The notes beneath the pieces were generated by a model. That model made no database searches. It had not been told where the DNA came from and saw only the letters and a list, made by a program, of their open reading frames with translations. A DNA stretch of 36,222 bases from Rhizobium sp. Q54. Lineage in GTDB: Bacteria; Pseudomonadota; Alphaproteobacteria; Rhizobiales; Xanthobacteraceae. The translations under genes were made by a program, and so were the position numbers. Location of the stretch: positions 1 through 36,222 of the forward strand of contig CAMBQQ010000035.1 of assembly GCA_945870035.1 (NCBI GenBank), in the 5' to 3' direction. Below are positions 25,704 to 32,308 of the stretch, in pieces (position 1 is the stretch's first letter; each line of letters starts with the position of its first letter).

Positions 25704-26996
25704 TCAGGGCGGCGCCAAGGCAATGACGCCCCACAGCGCCGCCATCCCGGCGATCCAACAGCCAACCGTCACCACCGACAATTCGACGGCAAAACGGCCC
25801 CGCCCGATAAAGATGGCCATAGCCAGCTTGCTGAGCATGTTGCTGGCGACCGCTGCCAAAATACCCAGACTGGCGGCGAAGCCTTCGAGCGGCACCGGCA
25901 CAAGCCGCGACAGCGCGATCGTTACCGCATCGACGTCGGCGAGCCCGAGCCCAGCAGCGCCGAACAGCGCCCCTTGCGCGCCGAATGCGTCACCGATGAC
26001 GCGGCCCAGGACGATCACCGCGCCAAGGAAGACCGCGAAACCAAACACCGGCCAGAATGCAAAAGGATTTGCGAACTGCGACGGCCGCGGCGTTTCGCTC
26101 GAAACCGCCCCACGCCAATAGACCGCGTGCACCGCATAAAGCGTAGCAAGCAGCGTCGGCGCGGCCAAAACCGGCGCGATCAGGGCCAGCAACTCCGGCT
26201 TTATGACAGCGACAATGGCAATGACCCGCAGAAATGACACCGCCGACGCCATCGCCACGCCAGCCGCCAGCAGCAATGGCTCGCCTTCGTGCGCGGCGGC
26301 GCGATGGGCACTGGTTAGCGCCACCGCGGTCGATGACACCAAAGCGCCGGCCAGCGCCGACAGCAGCACGCCGCTCCTGGCGCCGAAATACTTCACCGCG
26401 CCATAGCCAAGGAACGAGACGGCAGCCAGAACGATAGCGATCAGCCAGACCTCGCGCAGGTTGACGCCGCCGCTCGGCCCGACATTTGAGGCAGGCAAGA
26501 TTGGCAGCACGATGAAGCTCATCGCCAGCAAGACAAGAACCGAGCGCAACTCCGGCCACGTCATCCCCGCGACCCAGCTGTGAATTTGAGCGCGCGAGGC
26601 CAAAATCCCAGCGGCGACCACCGCGGCTGCGGCCGACGCGCGTGCGTCGCCGATAACCGCGTAGGCACCAAGCAAGAAGGTCAGCAAGCCGGCGATGATC
26701 GTTGTTGCGGAATAACCGCCGGCGGCCCGCGCGGCATCACGCTCGAAGACGGCGAACACGGCGGCATAGGCGGCAAATGAAAGGCCGAGCACAAGACCCG
26801 CGGCAACCGCGCTGCCCATCGCTTGCGCCAGCGCCGCCGCCAGACCACCCAGCAGCCCACACTGTGCAAAGGTGCGGAAGCCTGCTGCGCGCGTACCGGG
26901 CGCGGCAGCGCGCGTCTTCCAGCCGCGCTCGAGGCCGATCAAAAGCCCGATGCCGAGCGCGGTCGCCAGCCGGTAAAGAAGTTGGTCGATTTCCAT
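25704..26996 (-). CDS. MgtC/SapB-DUF4010 membrane protein
   Basis: A 430-residue integral membrane protein with about twelve hydrophobic helices. The N-terminal MgtC/SapB module (residues 1-135) includes LATALGIGLLIGLERGW, TRAAGFRTFAQCGLLGGLA and GYSATTIIAGLLTFLLGAY. The rest matches DUF4010, with SALAGALVSSTAVALTSA near residue 215 and GLGLADVDAVTIALSR near 348. Fusions of this type are common and functionally undefined; MgtC itself relates to Mg2+ limitation and pH balance. It is the first gene upstream of pccA with a 69-base gap and probably separate in function. Confidence 0.88.
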   Translation of the reverse strand: MEIDQLLYRLATALGIGLLIGLERGWKTRAAAPGTRAAGFRTFAQCGLLGGLAAALAQAMGSAVAAGLVLGLSFAAYAAVFAVFERDAARAAGGYSATTIIAGLLTFLLGAYAVIGDARASAAAAVVAAGILASRAQIHSWVAGMTWPELRSVLVLLAMSFIVLPILPASNVGPSGGVNLREVWLIAIVLAAVSFLGYGAVKYFGARSGVLLSALAGALVSSTAVALTSAHRAAAHEGEPLLLAAGVAMASAVSFLRVIAIVAVIKPELLALIAPVLAAPTLLATLYAVHAVYWRGAVSSETPRPSQFANPFAFWPVFGFAVFLGAVIVLGRVIGDAFGAQGALFGAAGLGLADVDAVTIALSRLVPVPLEGFAASLGILAAVASNMLSKLAMAIFIGRGRFAVELSVVTVGCWIAGMAALWGVIALAPP

Positions 26997-27243
26997 CGTC
27001 AGGCACTCGCTCCGGCCGGGTTAAGAGACATTATCGTCGACTGCCCCGGATACCCGATCATCGCCGGGCCGGCGCCGGCGAGAATATGAGTTTCGTCGCA
27101 CGGCTCGGCCCGCACGGTTTGATCTCCCGCAAACGCAGCCGACAGCGCTCCTGTTCTCTTTGCGGCTGGGTCTATTCCCCTCCGCCAGCGACGCCTATAT
27201 TGGGCATCGGAACCTTTCTTCCGCGACGTATTGGAGATTTCTC

Positions 27244-27903
27244 ATGACATTGGCGATTGGCGATACCGCACCCGACTTCGAGGCGGAAACCACCGAAGGC
27301 AATATCCGCTTTCACGATTGGCTCGGCAATTCCTGGGGCGTGCTGTTCTCGCACCCGAAGGATTTCACGCCGGTTTGCACCACCGAACTTGGCGCCGTGG
27401 CGCGCCTGAAGCCGGATTTCGACAAGCGCAACGTCAAGGTTATCGGCCTGTCGGTTGACCCCGTCGACAACCACGCCAAGTGGGCGGTCGATATCAAGGA
27501 CGTCGGCGGCATGGCGCCTAACTATCCGATGATCGGCGACACCGATCTGAAGATCTCGAAAGCCTATGGCATGCTGCCCGCCTCGACCGGGGGCACGTCG
27601 GAAGGCCGCACGCCGGCCGATAACCAGACCGTGCGCAACGTCTTCATCGTCGGGCCCGACAAGAAGATTAAGCTGATCCTGGTCTATCCGATGGCGGTCG
27701 GCCGCAACTTCCAGGAAATCCTGCGCGTGATCGACGCGTTGCAGCTCAATGCCAAGCATCGCGTGGCGACGCCGGCGGACTGGAAGCAAGGCGAGGACGT
27801 CATCCTCACCTCGGCGATCACCAATGACGAAGCCAAGACGCTTTACCCGGAAGGCTACAAGACCGTGAAGCCCTATCTGCGCACGGTGCCGCAGCCGAAG
27901 TAA
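27244..27903 (+). CDS. 1-Cys peroxiredoxin (Prx6 type)
   Basis: A 219-residue cytoplasmic peroxidase of the AhpC/TSA superfamily, 1-Cys (Prx6) branch. The active-site loop SHPKDFTPVCTTE holds the peroxidatic Cys45 with His37 and Thr42. No second conserved cysteine is seen elsewhere. VIGLSVDPVDNHAKW, the later DKKIKLILVYPMAVGRNF and VATPADWKQGEDVI are Prx6 hallmarks of the long C-terminal domain. The start at 27244 follows GGAGATTTCTC, a good ribosome binding site. It is divergent from the MgtC/DUF4010 gene with a 247-base gap and ends at a strong terminator. Confidence 0.94.
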   Translation: MTLAIGDTAPDFEAETTEGNIRFHDWLGNSWGVLFSHPKDFTPVCTTELGAVARLKPDFDKRNVKVIGLSVDPVDNHAKWAVDIKDVGGMAPNYPMIGDTDLKISKAYGMLPASTGGTSEGRTPADNQTVRNVFIVGPDKKIKLILVYPMAVGRNFQEILRVIDALQLNAKHRVATPADWKQGEDVILTSAITNDEAKTLYPEGYKTVKPYLRTVPQPK

Positions 27904-27930
27904 ACACGGCGCACATCGTTGCTAAAGTGG

Positions 27931-27966
27931 AAGGGCGCGGATATGAAATCCGCGCCCTTTCCTTTT
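27931..27966 (+). terminator. Rho-independent terminator after peroxiredoxin
   Basis: AAGGGCGCGGAT at 27931-27942 pairs exactly with ATCCGCGCCCTT at 27948-27959 across a five-base loop and is followed by T-rich sequence (TCCTTTT). It lies 28 bases after the peroxiredoxin stop. The thioesterase gene follows and needs its own promoter or read-through. Confidence 0.85.
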
Positions 27967-28000
27967 GCGCCGCGCTGCATCGCCTTCCGGAGACCTTCGA

Positions 28001-28414
28001 GTGACCGACGACACCGTCAACCCAACCGCCTTCACCCAGCCGGCCTTCGCGCAATATATCGGCATCAAGATGACGCATATCTCGCTTGAGCGGGTCACCG
28101 CCGAATTGCCGATGCGCGACCAGCTCCTCAATCGTTTTGGCATCATGCATGGCGGCGCCATTATGGCGCTGGCCGACAATGTCGGCGGCACCGCCACCAC
28201 CGCCAACCTCAAGGAAGGGCAAACCACAACAACAATCGAGAGCAAGACCAATTTCTTCGCCGCCATCCCGATCGGCGACACCGCCTTTGCCGAATGCATC
28301 CCGCTGCATCGCGGCCGCACCACAATGGTCTGGCAGACCCGCATCACCCGCAATGACGGCCGGCTGTGCGCGATGGTAACGCAAACACAGATGGTGCTGG
28401 AAAAGAAAAAGTAG
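28001..28414 (+). CDS. PaaI-type hotdog thioesterase
   Basis: A 137-residue hotdog-fold thioesterase. IMHGGAIMALADNVGGTAT (from residue 49) is the PaaI/YbgC-type active-site motif, with the HGG turn and Asp59. ESKTNFFAAIPIGD and WQTRITRNDGRLCAMVTQTQ follow as the remaining family strands. It should hydrolyse acyl- or aryl-CoA esters in the cytoplasm. A GTG at 28001 is chosen as start because CGGAG stands eight bases upstream; an upstream start would add a non-conserved segment. It converges with the nrsF-like gene, with nine bases between the stops. Confidence 0.9.
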   Translation: MTDDTVNPTAFTQPAFAQYIGIKMTHISLERVTAELPMRDQLLNRFGIMHGGAIMALADNVGGTATTANLKEGQTTTTIESKTNFFAAIPIGDTAFAECIPLHRGRTTMVWQTRITRNDGRLCAMVTQTQMVLEKKK

Positions 28415-28423
28415 TCGGCGCCG

Positions 28424-29062
28424 CTACCAGCGCAGCAAACGACGCCCCAGCACCGCGCCCAGGACCGTCACGCCCCCAATCGCAACCGAATACCAGAAGG
28501 CGACAAACAGCGGCGAATCATCGGTGCAGTGCGTTGCATACAGCGCCGCAGCGAACCCACCGGCAGCCAATCCAGCCACAGCCCCGGCCGCGCTTCGCGA
28601 TGTCGGCGCACCGTGACGCAGCGCCAACAATAACGCGCCGAGAAGCGGCAGCGACAGCAGCGGGATCGCGGTCATGCAGATGCGCGCATTGCTGCCGATC
28701 AACTTGGTTGACCACTGCCCGGCCGGAACGACGAATAGCTCGGCAATAACGGCGACCGCCAGCACGAGCGGCGCGGCCGTCAGCGCGACCTTCTGCAAGC
28801 CTGTGGCTGCGCCCGGCTGCGCCAGCCGCAAGACGAGCGCAAGGGCCGTACCGGCCAGCAACAACGCCTGCACTATTTTGAGATCGAAGCGCACCGTGGC
28901 GGCGACGATTCCGATGTCCTCGCGCGGGCCCAACGCCACCCAGAACAGGACCGCCGACACCGCGAACCCAAGGGCGACCGCCAGTGCGACACGGCGGAAG
29001 AACGGCACGCCGGCATCCGTACCATCCACGACAAGAGCACGAACCAGATCATCGGTGCGCAT
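28424..29062 (-). CDS. nrsF: NrsF-type anti-sigma factor (DUF1109)
   Basis: A 212-residue inner-membrane protein with about six helices, of the DUF1109/NrsF family. NrsF of Caulobacter holds the ECF sigma factor SigF inactive and senses chromium, cadmium and copper stress through two conserved cysteines. Two cysteines are in fitting places here: Cys129 in NARICMT and Cys179 in ATHCTDDSP, each at a membrane edge. The cytoplasmic start MRTDDLVRALVVDGT is typical. The ATG at 29062 comes one base after the stop of the sigma factor gene, a tight operon that supports a sigma/anti-sigma pair. Confidence 0.92.
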   Translation of the reverse strand: MRTDDLVRALVVDGTDAGVPFFRRVALAVALGFAVSAVLFWVALGPREDIGIVAATVRFDLKIVQALLLAGTALALVLRLAQPGAATGLQKVALTAAPLVLAVAVIAELFVVPAGQWSTKLIGSNARICMTAIPLLSLPLLGALLLALRHGAPTSRSAAGAVAGLAAGGFAAALYATHCTDDSPLFVAFWYSVAIGGVTVLGAVLGRRLLRW

Positions 29063-29063
29063 A

Positions 29064-29609
29064 TCAGGACCGCTCCAATTTCTTTGCCAGTGACGCAAGG
29101 CCGCGATGCAGGGCGACCCGCACCGCCCCCGACGTCATGTTCAACCGCAAGGCAGCGTCGCCGATCGACATGCCCTCGACGGCCACCGCCTGAACCACCG
29201 CACGTTGACCGGCCGGCAATTGCGCAAGGTGACGCTCGATCTCGCTGCCCGACGCAGCCGGACTCTCTTCTTCCACGGCCAATATTTCGGAAAAATCATC
29301 GATCGGCAGATCGAAATATCCGGAACGACGACGCAGCGAGTCCACCAGCTTGTAACGGGCGATCGCATGGATCCAAGGCTCGATTGGCCGCGTGCTGTCC
29401 CAAGTGTGCCGCTTCAAATGCACCGCCAACAAAACCTCCTGAACCACATCCTCGAGTTCGGCGTCTGACCGGCCGGCACGCCTAAATCCGCGGCTGACCA
29501 AGGGTCGCAACGCAGCCGCAACCTCGTGCAACACGCGCCGATAGGCGGTTGCGTCGCCGCCATTGGCGGCACGCATGAGGTCAGCCCAACCGGCGCCACG
29601 CTGGCTCAC
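29064..29609 (-). CDS. sigF: ECF sigma factor, SigF-like
   Basis: A 181-residue extracytoplasmic-function sigma factor. Region 2 runs from about residue 38 to 110, with LEDVVQEVLLAVH and the -10-recognition helix WIHAIARYKLVDSLRRR. Region 4 is near 130-178: LPAGQRAVVQAVAVEGMS then IGDAALRLNMTSGAVRVALHR. The GTG at 29609 follows AGGAG by five bases. The downstream gene is its NrsF-type anti-sigma factor, and an upstream divergent operon encodes a bufferin system, the same partnership as the Caulobacter SigF regulon. A GTAACG-N16-CGAA element precedes the gene (29629-29654), so it probably activates itself. Confidence 0.94.
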   Translation of the reverse strand: MSQRGAGWADLMRAANGGDATAYRRVLHEVAAALRPLVSRGFRRAGRSDAELEDVVQEVLLAVHLKRHTWDSTRPIEPWIHAIARYKLVDSLRRRSGYFDLPIDDFSEILAVEEESPAASGSEIERHLAQLPAGQRAVVQAVAVEGMSIGDAALRLNMTSGAVRVALHRGLASLAKKLERS

Positions 29610-29628
29610 ACGCGCTCCTGCATGGTCA

Positions 29629-29654
29629 TTCGTTCAACCCCGGCATTCCGTTAC
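29629..29654 (-). promoter_or_regulatory. SigF-type promoter of the sigF-nrsF operon
   Basis: Reading the minus strand, GTAACG (29654-29649), a 16-base spacer and CGAA (29632-29629) form a match to the SigF-type consensus GTAACC-N16-CGAA known from Caulobacter. Transcription would start roughly seven bases further on and leave a very short leader containing AGGAG before the GTG start. This implies autoregulation. Confidence 0.8.
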
Positions 29655-29710
29655 ATGCGATGCGCAGCATTCACGCGGATTTGATGCCCTAACACATAAG
29701 CGTGACCGGC

Positions 29711-29736
29711 GTAACGCAAGCCGCTTCAGCCACGAA
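29711..29736 (+). promoter_or_regulatory. SigF-type promoter of the buf operon
   Basis: On the plus strand GTAACG (29711-29716), a 16-base spacer and CGAA (29733-29736) repeat the same element found on the other strand for the sigma factor gene. It gives an expected leader of roughly 90 bases before bufA1. The identical hexamer, spacer length and -10 in both directions make it very likely that the sigma factor controls the operon. Confidence 0.82.
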
Positions 29737-29831
29737 GAACCTGATGTGAGCCGGTCCACCGTTTCACTGCGGCCGGGTTTGTCCCGCGCCGACATTCGCA
29801 CCGACTAATATTAATACAGAGGGAAAACGTC

Positions 29832-30125
29832 ATGACCAAGAATTCGATCGCCGCCGCTACGCTCGCTGGCTCGCTCGCAGCCGCTTTCGCCATGATCTCG
29901 ATCGCGTCGGTCGCGCCGGCCCAGGCCCAGGATGCCAGCAAGGAGAAATGCTACGGCGTTTCGCTCGCCGGCAAAAACGACTGCGCTGCCGGCCCCGGCA
30001 CCACCTGCGCCGGCACGTCCAAGGTCGATTACCAAGGCAATGCCTGGAAATACGTGGCCAAGGGCACCTGCGCTTCCATGAAGACCCCGAAGGGCACCGG
30101 CTCGCTTACGGCGATCAAGTCTTAA
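29832..30125 (+). CDS. bufA1: BufA1-type bufferin precursor (DUF2282)
   Basis: A 97-residue precursor. Residues 1-33 form a long Sec signal peptide ending AQAQ. The mature peptide has four cysteines at 40, 51, 59 and 80, in [21 protein letters not shown] and KGTCAS, the DUF2282 pattern. In Caulobacter such peptides are bufferins: cysteine residues are modified by BufB and BufC, and the exported product chelates copper in the periplasm. Its place directly before DUF692 and DUF2063 genes makes the call strong. GAGGGAAAA precedes the ATG. Which cysteines are modified here cannot be read from sequence. Confidence 0.93.
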
Positions 30126-30134
30126 GAGCAAAAC

Positions 30135-30171
30135 GCGGGAGGCGCGCAGCGTTCCTGCGCGTCTCCCCCGC
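30135..30171 (+). terminator. Long GC hairpin between bufA1 and bufB
   Basis: GCGGGAGGCGCGCAG (30135-30149) pairs with CTGCGCGTCTCCCCCGC (30155-30171) over a five-base loop, with a small bulge and one G-T pair. No T-tract follows. It sits nine bases after the bufA1 stop and may act as a partial terminator or mRNA stabiliser that keeps the peptide mRNA more abundant than its enzymes' mRNA. Confidence 0.6.
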
Positions 30172-30192
30172 TTACCCAGCCAGGCAAACCTT

Positions 30193-31050
30193 ATGATAAG
30201 CGCTTCCGGACTTCCCGCTTCCGCCGGCGTCGGCTTCAAGCCCCAACATTTCGCCGACATTATCGGCGGCGACCAGCCGATCGGCTTTGTCGAAGTTCAT
30301 GCCGAAAATTACATGGGCGCGGGCGGCCCGCCGCACGCGCAGCTTGCCGCGCTGCGCGAACGCTATGCGCTGTCGGTGCACGGCGTCGGCCTGTCGATCG
30401 GCGGCGCAGCTGCCCTCGACGCCGAGCATCTGTCGCGGCTCAAGACGCTGTGCGACCGTTATCAACCCGCCAGATTTTCCGAACATCTCGCATGGTCGTC
30501 GCATGGTGACGTATTCTACAACGACCTGCTGCCGCTGCCCTATACCGAGCAAACGCTCGCCCGTATCGTCGAGCACATCGACCGTGTGCAAACGACGCTC
30601 CGGCGCGAAATGCTCTTGGAAAACCCCTCGACCTACCTCGCCTTCGTCGAAAGCACGATTCCGGAAACCGAATTCCTCGCCGAGATCGCCTATCGCAGCG
30701 GTTGCGGCCTGTTGCTCGACGTCAACAACGTCTTCGTCAGTGCGAAAAATCATGGCACCGATCCGTCCTCCTATCTCGCGGCATTCCCAATCGCCCGCGT
30801 GAAGGAAATTCATCTCGGCGGACATGAGGAGCAGGCCGACGACGAAGGCGCGCCCCTGCTGATCGACGCGCATGGCTCGCCGGTCGCCGACCCGGTCTGG
30901 GCGCTCTACGAAAGCGTGATCGCACGTACCGGTCCGCTGGCAACCTTGATCGAATGGGACAACGACGTCCCGGCATGGCCGCAACTCGCCAGCGAGGCGC
31001 GCGCGGCCAATGCCATCCTCGACCGGGCCGCCAATGCGAGGGCCGCGTGA
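30193..31050 (+). CDS. bufB: BufB, DUF692/MNIO multinuclear iron oxidase
   Basis: A 285-residue TIM-barrel enzyme of the MNIO (DUF692) family, multinuclear non-haem iron oxidases that modify cysteines of ribosomal peptides. The likely iron ligands are all present: His36 in EVHAENY, His63 in [10 protein letters not shown], His98 in FSEHLAW, Glu143 and Asn144 in LLENPSTY, Asp176 and Asn178 in LLDVNNV, His207 and His211 in IHLGGHEE, Asp225 and His227 in DAHGSPV and Glu254 in EWDNDVP. It should act in the cytoplasm on the BufA1 precursor. The ATG at 30193 begins just before the conserved GVGFKPQHF segment. The stop overlaps the bufC start. Confidence 0.94.
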
Positions 31051-31844
31051 TGACCGCTGCATCGCCGGCCTTCCAGGATAACTTCGCGAACGCTTTGCTG
31101 GATGCGGATCGGGCGGTGCCCGAAGCTGTCACGTCGCACACCGCGAGAACGCCGCGAAAACGATTCGCGGTCTATCGGAACAACGTGATTGTCGGGCTGG
31201 TGCAGGCCCTGCGCGAGCAATTCCCCGCTATCGAAAAAATCGTCGGCGAAGAATTCTTCGCGGCGATGGCCCGCGTCTATGTGGTCAATGAACCGCCACG
31301 CTCGCCGATCCTCATCGACTATGGCAATGGCTTTCCCGGCTTCATTGCACGGTTCGAGCCGGCGGCGGAATTGCCTTACCTCGCCGATGTCGCACGGCTC
31401 GAGATCGCACGCACGCGGGCCTATCACGCCGCCGATGCCACCTCGCTCAACCCGGCGCATTGGAATGGGCTCGATCCAGCCGCGCTTGCCGATACGCGCG
31501 CTACCCTGCACCCGTCGCTCCAGATCCTGCGTTCGCGCTACCCGGTCGTCACGATTTGGGAAATGAACGCCGGCGGCATCGAGCCGGCCTCGATTGAGGA
31601 CTGCGAAGCCGAGAACGCTTTGATCGTACGCCCACACTTTGATGTTGAGGTGCGCCGGCTTCCTGCCGGCGGCGCCGCGTTTCTGCACGCGCTCGCCATG
31701 GGCGCTTCGCTTGGCGAAGCCGCGACATCGGCCGCCGCCGAGACCCCCGCATTCGACCTCGCCGCCAATCTCGCTGGCCTCATCGGCGCCGGGCTGGCAA
31801 CCGCACTGCATTGCACCACGGCCCACAAGGATATCGCCCCATGA
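31050..31844 (+). CDS. bufC: BufC, DUF2063 partner of BufB
   Basis: A 264-residue protein. The N-terminal part (about residues 8-100) is a DUF2063 domain: [13 protein letters not shown], then [20 protein letters not shown] and [15 protein letters not shown] with the following [13 protein letters not shown]. The C-terminal part is a winged-helix-like domain of the same family. Proteins of this type present the precursor peptide to the MNIO enzyme; the old label DNA-binding is misleading. ATG overlaps the bufB stop (TGATG), so the two are translationally coupled, and its own stop overlaps the doxX start (ATGA). Confidence 0.92.
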
Positions 31845-32308
31845 GCCAAGCGCTCGCCGCACCGTCCAAGCCGAACCAATCGAATCCGATGGACCGGCTC
31901 ATCCATGCAATGGAGGCCATCCCGTACTGGTTCGTGGCGATTGTCACGCGCGTCTCGATTGCCGGTGTGTTTTGGCAATCCGGACAGACCAAGGTCGATG
32001 GATTCCGCGTCACAGACTCGGCGATCGAACTCTTCCGCAGCGAATACCGGCTGCCGATCATCGATCCGGCAATCGGCGCGCATCTGGCTGCGCTGGCCGA
32101 GCATCTGTTTCCCGTATTGTTGCTGATCGGGATCGCGACACGATTTTCCGCGCTCGCGCTTTTGAGCATGACACTGGTGATCCAGATATTCGTCTATCCC
32201 GATGCCTGGCCGACGCACGGCACCTGGGCGGCTTGTTTGCTGCTGTTGATGACACGCGGCGCCGGGCTGCTCTCGCTCGATCACATGATCGCGCGGCGGC
32301 AGGCCTGA
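31841..32308 (+). CDS. DoxX-family membrane protein
   Basis: A 155-residue inner-membrane protein with four helices (about residues 30-50, 78-98, 102-120 and 128-148), DoxX/DUF4870-like in layout. [27 protein letters not shown] opens the family domain, and [18 protein letters not shown] follows. Many bufferin-type operons end with a DoxX protein whose role is uncertain; redox or quinone-linked function is proposed. AAGGA precedes the ATG at 31841 by nine bases, and the start overlaps the bufC stop by four, placing it in the same operon. Confidence 0.9.

Follow-up and report, generated by a model that had tools for sequence, protein, structure and literature searches.

A Buf1-type bufferin operon, very probably under NrsF–SigF control, in Rhizobium sp. 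Q54, with a candidate operator dyad upstream of bufA

We analyzed a 36,222-nucleotide stretch of DNA from Rhizobium sp. Q54 (assembly GCA_945870035.1, contig CAMBQQ010000035.1; hereafter the window), which is the whole of contig C35 of a 4.12 Mb genome assembled in 189 contigs and 91% complete. Between positions 28424 and 32308, the open reading frame (ORF) list together with Pfam and NCBIfam profile searches delineated six genes, all with intact frames: a bufferin operon, bufABC-doxX, and, divergent from it, a tandem sigF-nrsF pair (Table 1). This corroborates at the same coordinates a preliminary description of the locus, which had proposed DUF2282, MNIO, DUF2063 and DoxX genes divergent from an extracytoplasmic function (ECF) sigma factor gene and an NrsF gene, and the family memberships also support its reading of the four genes as a bufferin operon. 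An ECF sigma factor gene followed, 1 nt further on, by an NrsF (PF06532) gene is the arrangement of the SigF–NrsF (ECF16) system.

The stop/start coupling that had likewise been proposed for the operon was found at the bufB/bufC (TGATG) and bufC/doxX (ATGA) junctions, and does not extend to bufA and bufB, which are 67 nt apart. For doxX, the mechanical ORF starts at a TTG (31811), and it is the ATG at 31841 that overlaps the bufC stop. The bufB product aligns to PDB 3BWW (E-value 2e-41), and structure searches with bufC and bufA returned no relevant solved-structure match. In this 91%-complete genome, DUF2282, MNIO and NrsF genes were each detected once.

Table 1. Genes and DNA elements of the bufferin locus, with positions in the window.
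Feature	Position	Strand	Description
nrsF	28424..29062	-	212 aa; ATG start; NrsF-family membrane anti-sigma factor; PF06532, 185.7 bits (cut-off 26.8)
sigF	29064..29609	-	GTG start; ECF sigma factor (ECF16/SigF type); NF009165, 244 bits (cut-off 198); Sigma70_r2 and r4_2
SigF-type promoter of sigF-nrsF	29629..29654	-	GTAACG-N16-CGAA
Dyad CACATAAGCGTG	29693..29704		6 nt upstream of the bufA -35; candidate operator of a second regulator
SigF-type promoter of bufABC-doxX	29711..29736	+	GTAACG-N16-CGAA
bufA	29832..30125	+	97 aa; Buf1 bufferin precursor; PF10048 (DUF2282), E-value 4.2e-25
bufB	30193..31050	+	285 aa; MNIO (formerly DUF692) bufferin maturase; NF050167 (MNIO_BufB), 384.4 bits (cut-off 310)
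bufC	31050..31844	+	264 aa; DUF2063 partner protein of MNIO; PF09836, 94.8 bits
doxX	31841..32308	+	155 aa; ATG start; DoxX-family membrane protein; PF07681, 58.9 bits

The bufA product contains exactly four cysteines, at residues 40, 51, 59 and 80, a pattern shared by all but one of 29 further DUF2282 proteins. Its N-terminus is hydrophobic and, judged by eye, resembles a Sec-type signal with an A-X-A motif before residue 33 or 34 (APAQA or APAQAQ). A Buf2 identity was rejected, the Buf2 (BufA2) model NF050166 giving 23 bits against a cut-off of 60. The single exception to the four-cysteine pattern (locus L065 in genome G046) is a DUF2282 protein which, over its whole length, lacks the second and third cysteines and keeps the outer two; no bufB is present within its fetched flanks. 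Likewise, DUF2282 proteins of L202 (G092), L203 (G153), L204 (G124) and, similarly, L201 (G080) lack the second cysteine within the first 22 match residues that were seen. Such proteins may be unmodified bufferin paralogues, the lost cysteines being those expected to be the MNIO targets.

The two SigF-type elements of Table 1 face away from each other and constitute the divergent promoters of the locus. The SigF protein of Caulobacter crescentus recognizes GTAACC-N16-CGAA (PMC3511200), and the ECF16 consensus is given as (T/C)GTAAC-N17-CGAA (PMC8315932). In the window, exact elements of this kind occur twice, against 0.08 expected, both of them at this locus, and none of 100 shuffles had two. 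When the bufA–sigF intergenic region was aligned with those of seven relatives (L015 and L019 being nearly identical), GTAAC was invariant on both sides at the eight loci, and so was CGAA in front of bufA; towards sigF, four loci (L020, L022, L023 and L024) have a spacer shorter by one base, and L021 lacks CGAA. A further element, GTAACCTTT...CGAA, is located inside sigF at L029, L030, L032, L035 and L036, about 290 nt into the aligned part and pointing to nrsF; it may be an internal promoter that supplies additional anti-sigma factor, or it may reflect conservation of the coding sequence.

The relation between this element and NrsF was evaluated in two sets of genomes. The first comprised 60 related genomes, this one included, with NrsF in 18 and bufA in 27, and GTAAC-N16..18-CGAA was searched within 300 bp before bufA at 30 of the 31 DUF2282 loci (one being without fetched DNA). 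The element preceded bufA in 14 of 14 genomes with NrsF and in none of the 13 without. As bufA is not adjacent to nrsF in five of these 14 genomes (on another contig in three and 4–12 kb off in two; G028, G029, G035, G036 and G040), linkage alone does not account for the association. For the second set, the outcome was predicted beforehand: 150 genomes were drawn from the rest of the order (Hyphomicrobiales) with the first-sample genomes excluded, NrsF was counted above the Pfam cut-off, and 450 bp before the DUF2282 match were searched at 80 loci, one of which had just 3 bp of upstream DNA. Of the 67 of these genomes carrying bufA, 24 have NrsF and 43 do not; the element was detected in 17 and 0 of them, respectively, and the reversed control pattern in 1 and 0. 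The corresponding Fisher p values (5e-8 and 1e-10) are too small because the sampled genomes are related, although the direction is still clear. Combining both sets, presence of the element agrees with presence of NrsF in 87 of the 94 bufA genomes (31 with both, 56 with neither), the other seven having NrsF and no exact element. The two divergent elements and this strong association support the earlier proposal that SigF controls the bufferin operon.

The NrsF protein of this locus possesses only two cysteines, C129 and C179, spaced by 50. Judged by spacing and length, they correspond to C131 and C181 of Caulobacter NrsF; replacing the latter pair loosens SigF in C. crescentus (PMC3511200). 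Across 21 aligned NrsF proteins, the first cysteine is invariant and the second position is occupied by cysteine in 12 and by histidine in 9. The latter nine (L027-L033, L035 and L036) form a second class, which has an extra cysteine 20 columns before the first one and of which two members, L028 and L031, adjoin a bufA operon.

Beyond the operon, the upstream neighbors (25704-28414) encode an MgtC/DUF4010 membrane protein, a 1-Cys peroxiredoxin and a thioesterase. The same locus is present on a contig labelled as a Pseudolabrys metagenome-assembled genome (Hyphomicrobiales, Xanthobacteraceae), with an NrsF that is 73% identical. Relatives of this NrsF were found in 75 plasmid records, mostly from Sinorhizobium, Rhizobium, Shinella and Ensifer, and relatives of bufB in 355, including Escherichia, Klebsiella and Salmonella.

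The newness of this kind of locus had been overstated in the preliminary description, as Kohler et al. had already reported this gene arrangement from C. crescentus in 2012 (PMC3511200), a Sinorhizobium meliloti counterpart followed in 2018 (PMC6180224), and sigma and NrsF genes were reported in Buf1 clusters by Antoine et al. in 2025 (PMC12452194). The locus resembles CC3252-CC3257 of C. crescentus/vibrioides in gene content and order, SigF element, NrsF cysteine pair and DUF2282 precursor (PMC3511200, PMC12452194). In contrast to the single copies found here, the C. crescentus regulon is described as including another buf operon that depends on SigF, as well as a YedY/msrP gene (PMC3511200). 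With the S. meliloti rpoE7-ecfR7 / SMb20530-SMb20527 region (SMb20527-SMb20532) it shares gene order (PMC6180224), SigF elements on both sides and, from our comparison of the DNA, an upstream dyad, whereas the proteins are 42-60% identical over their aligned parts and the S. meliloti locus resides on pSymB and is absent from some strains. A signal-bearing precursor, an MNIO, a DUF2063 partner and often a DoxX protein are also features of Buf2 bufferin, oxazolin/Hvf and fontiphorin clusters (PMC12452194, PMC12668002). However, Buf2 precursors have six or twelve cysteines and those of the other clusters EGKCG repeats, instead of the four cysteines observed here, and Buf2 clusters are reported without the sigma and NrsF genes that are both present here (PMC12452194). 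Against the Buf2, HvfB, HvfC and HvfX models, this locus falls below the cut-offs.

Overall, we consider it very probable that the locus is a Buf1-type bufferin operon under NrsF–SigF control, induced by a metal, most likely copper, and yielding a periplasmic copper-binding thiooxazole peptide. By analogy with studied relatives, NrsF would hold SigF at the membrane until metal stress sets it free, most probably through an action of copper on the pair of NrsF cysteines; such holding and release were shown in part for C. crescentus (PMC3511200). Freed SigF would then transcribe bufABC-doxX and its own operon from the divergent GTAAC-N17-CGAA promoters. The predicted precursor is likely to be oxidized by BufB and BufC at the central cysteines 51 and 59 to give thiooxazoles, exported by Sec and closed by a disulfide between Cys 40 and Cys 80, after which the mature peptide would likely bind copper in the periplasm. 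The model for these steps is bufferin 1, which carries thiooxazoles on its central cysteines and a disulfide between the first and last one, and chelates copper (PMC12452194, PMC12668002); no feature of the present locus conflicts with this scheme. The calculated monoisotopic mass of the reduced peptide is 6560.15 if cleavage follows AQA and 6432.10 if it follows AQAQ; with one disulfide and, as assumed for thiooxazoles, two four-electron oxidations, it would fall by about 10.08 to 6550.08 or 6422.02. Thiooxazoles would be expected to show an absorbance near 305 nm (PMC12668002).

Several observations weigh against this reading, among them the relatedness of the genomes that inflates the p values given above. 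The nrsF product scored 101 bits against the NCBIfam equivalog NF042994, below its cut-off of 300; bufC scored 49 bits against NF050145 (HvfC, cut-off 142) and doxX 52 bits against NF050144 (HvfX, cut-off 80), and bufB remained below the cut-off of the HvfB model. Moreover, seven of the 24 NrsF-bearing genomes of the second sample have no exact element before bufA: five of them have looser matches, four with CGTA for CGAA and all at an uncomputed chance rate, and the remaining two (G103 and G181) have none. Across the whole genome, GTAAC(C/G)-N16-CGAA has 12 exact matches compared to 21 for the reversed control; in the absence of such enrichment, the element alone predicts little. Ten of the 12 lie outside this locus, eight of them overlapping a same-strand mechanical ORF, so that none was convincing; a wider SigF regulon in this genome was rejected on this ground, without any of the ten being excluded as a site. 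Regarding the signal, in the S. meliloti orthologue neither H2O2, Cd nor chromate caused induction and copper is not among the inducers named, according to the available portions of the report (PMC6180224), and certain members of the ECF16 group, which govern operons for methionine sulfoxide reductase, respond to HOCl or reactive oxygen (PMC8315932); the signal may therefore differ from copper.

That the same operon serves oxidant or chlorine stress, or a metal other than copper (Au, Ag, Cd or Cr), in signal and role is nonetheless unlikely in our judgment. Copper induces the whole SigF regulon of C. crescentus, whose sigF mutant is copper-sensitive (PMC8224329). SigF of C. crescentus also answers Cr and Cd (PMC3511200), but the mutant is described as sensitive to Cu and not to Cr or Cd (PMC3511200, PMC8224329). 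As this mutant was also reported to fare poorly in stationary phase when oxidatively stressed (PMC8224329), copper may not be the only signal; yet reactive-oxygen generators are reported to give no induction of the C. crescentus SigF genes (PMC3511200, PMC8224329). In other bacteria, Buf operons are known as gig operons, which gold induces (PMC12452194); this favors another metal, and the oxidant-responsive ECF16 relatives favor an oxidant, while the S. meliloti data speak against H2O2, Cd and chromate. The msrP-type genes were rejected as SigF targets: for the five Oxidored_molyb genes, members of the wider family that includes msrP, the fetched flanks contained no exact element, and the contigs carrying them harbor none of the 12 exact sites, the search having covered exact sites only. 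A decayed or silent operon is highly improbable. Although bufA is unevenly distributed across the genus, occurring in 12 of 36 genomes when this one is counted, the six frames are uninterrupted, the Pfam matches score high and both promoter elements are present. The G+C content of the locus (63.5%), on a par with that of its surroundings (62.8%), also argues against a remnant, and on this composition a recent transfer was rejected.

SigF may not act alone. Upstream of the bufA -35 box lies a dyad (Table 1) which we read as the operator of a second regulator, and the chances are about even that such a regulator binds at this site and that SigF by itself is insufficient for bufA control. The dyad was noticed after the fact, as CAC(G/A)-N4-CGTG upstream of -35 boxes, and then tested. 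At 109 bufA loci (110 minus one dropped for short DNA), CAC-N6-GTG was present in 50, belonging to 23 of 39 families, compared to a mean of 7.7 (standard deviation 2.7, largest 18) in 100 dinucleotide shuffles and to 2-10 loci for each of the spacers 0-5 and 7-15. When all 832 triplet inverted repeats were compared at spacers 0-12, it ranked first, the overall mean being 10.3 loci. GC-only triplets came close behind, however, with GCG-N8-CGC at 48 and GCC-N6-GGC at 44 loci, counts which we attribute to base composition as the probable cause. Of the loci with NrsF, 25 of 46 carry the dyad, and so do 25 of the 63 lacking NrsF; it is therefore not a component of the SigF element. Within 80 nt before a SigF element, it occurred at 4 of 12 loci that had not been inspected beforehand (0.27 expected) compared to 16 of 19 inspected ones: the excess near the SigF element is real, and the first impression was flattering. 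In other orders of the class, 18 of 61 loci possess the dyad, whereas 100 shuffles averaged 4.2 and reached at most 9, and each of the other spacers gave 2-5 loci; these are 61 of 62 new loci, some sharing a genus, for which NrsF was not searched. Outside the order, a SigF element is present at 15 loci, just 2 of which also have the dyad, and the pairing of dyad and SigF element thus looks characteristic of Hyphomicrobiales. In S. meliloti 1021, CACGAAAGCGTG precedes by 12 nt the -35 of the RpoE7-dependent bufA promoter, taken from the published table of ECF-dependent promoters, and in Ensifer adhaerens the distance is 13 nt.

Other results count against a second regulator at this site. In the window alone, the number of matches to the dyad pattern is not unusual (2 against 3.2 expected), and no regulator was pinpointed; none was recognized by eye beside bufA at 22 loci of genomes without NrsF. 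In many such genomes (L136-L138, L145, L152, L127, L130, L037, L039, L055 and others), the gene upstream of bufA, often divergent, is presumably gltB, as its N-terminal sequence resembles the large subunit of glutamate synthase. The strict form TCACGN4CGTGA had 65 sites in 16 chosen genomes compared to 23 for the reversed control, which was equal or higher in four of the 16. Six of the 65 precede bufA and the other 59 were fetched; 23 of these, with the three from this genome among them, lie in long open frames, and by the ORF rule used no pair of the 59 had homologous neighbors. Single dyad sites precede a heavy-metal P-type ATPase (L251, G178) and a cytochrome cd1 protein (L209, G161), and others a fasciclin protein and further genes lacking a metal link. 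In G167, dyad and SigF element together precede a DsbD-type membrane protein (L261) and also occur about 650 nt before nrsF (L260). The literature searched contained no match for the literal dyad motif, nor for DUF692 with a palindromic promoter. On balance, we give even odds to the proposal that many alphaproteobacterial bufferin promoters share the operator TCAC(G/A)-N4-CGTGA for an undescribed regulator, which may be more general than SigF and would be a candidate copper sensor where SigF–NrsF is lacking. Within Hyphomicrobiales this operator would frequently neighbor the SigF promoter, whereas in other orders, and in species lacking NrsF, it would occur with no SigF element.

The co-occurrence rule and the dyad are the new additions of this analysis, of which the dyad alone might surprise specialists. 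By this simple rule, the link between SigF and bufferins, studied so far in two bacteria, now reaches dozens of related genomes. As a short DNA probe, the dyad offers a concrete handle on how bufferins are switched in species without SigF–NrsF, which make up 56 of the 94 bufA genomes.

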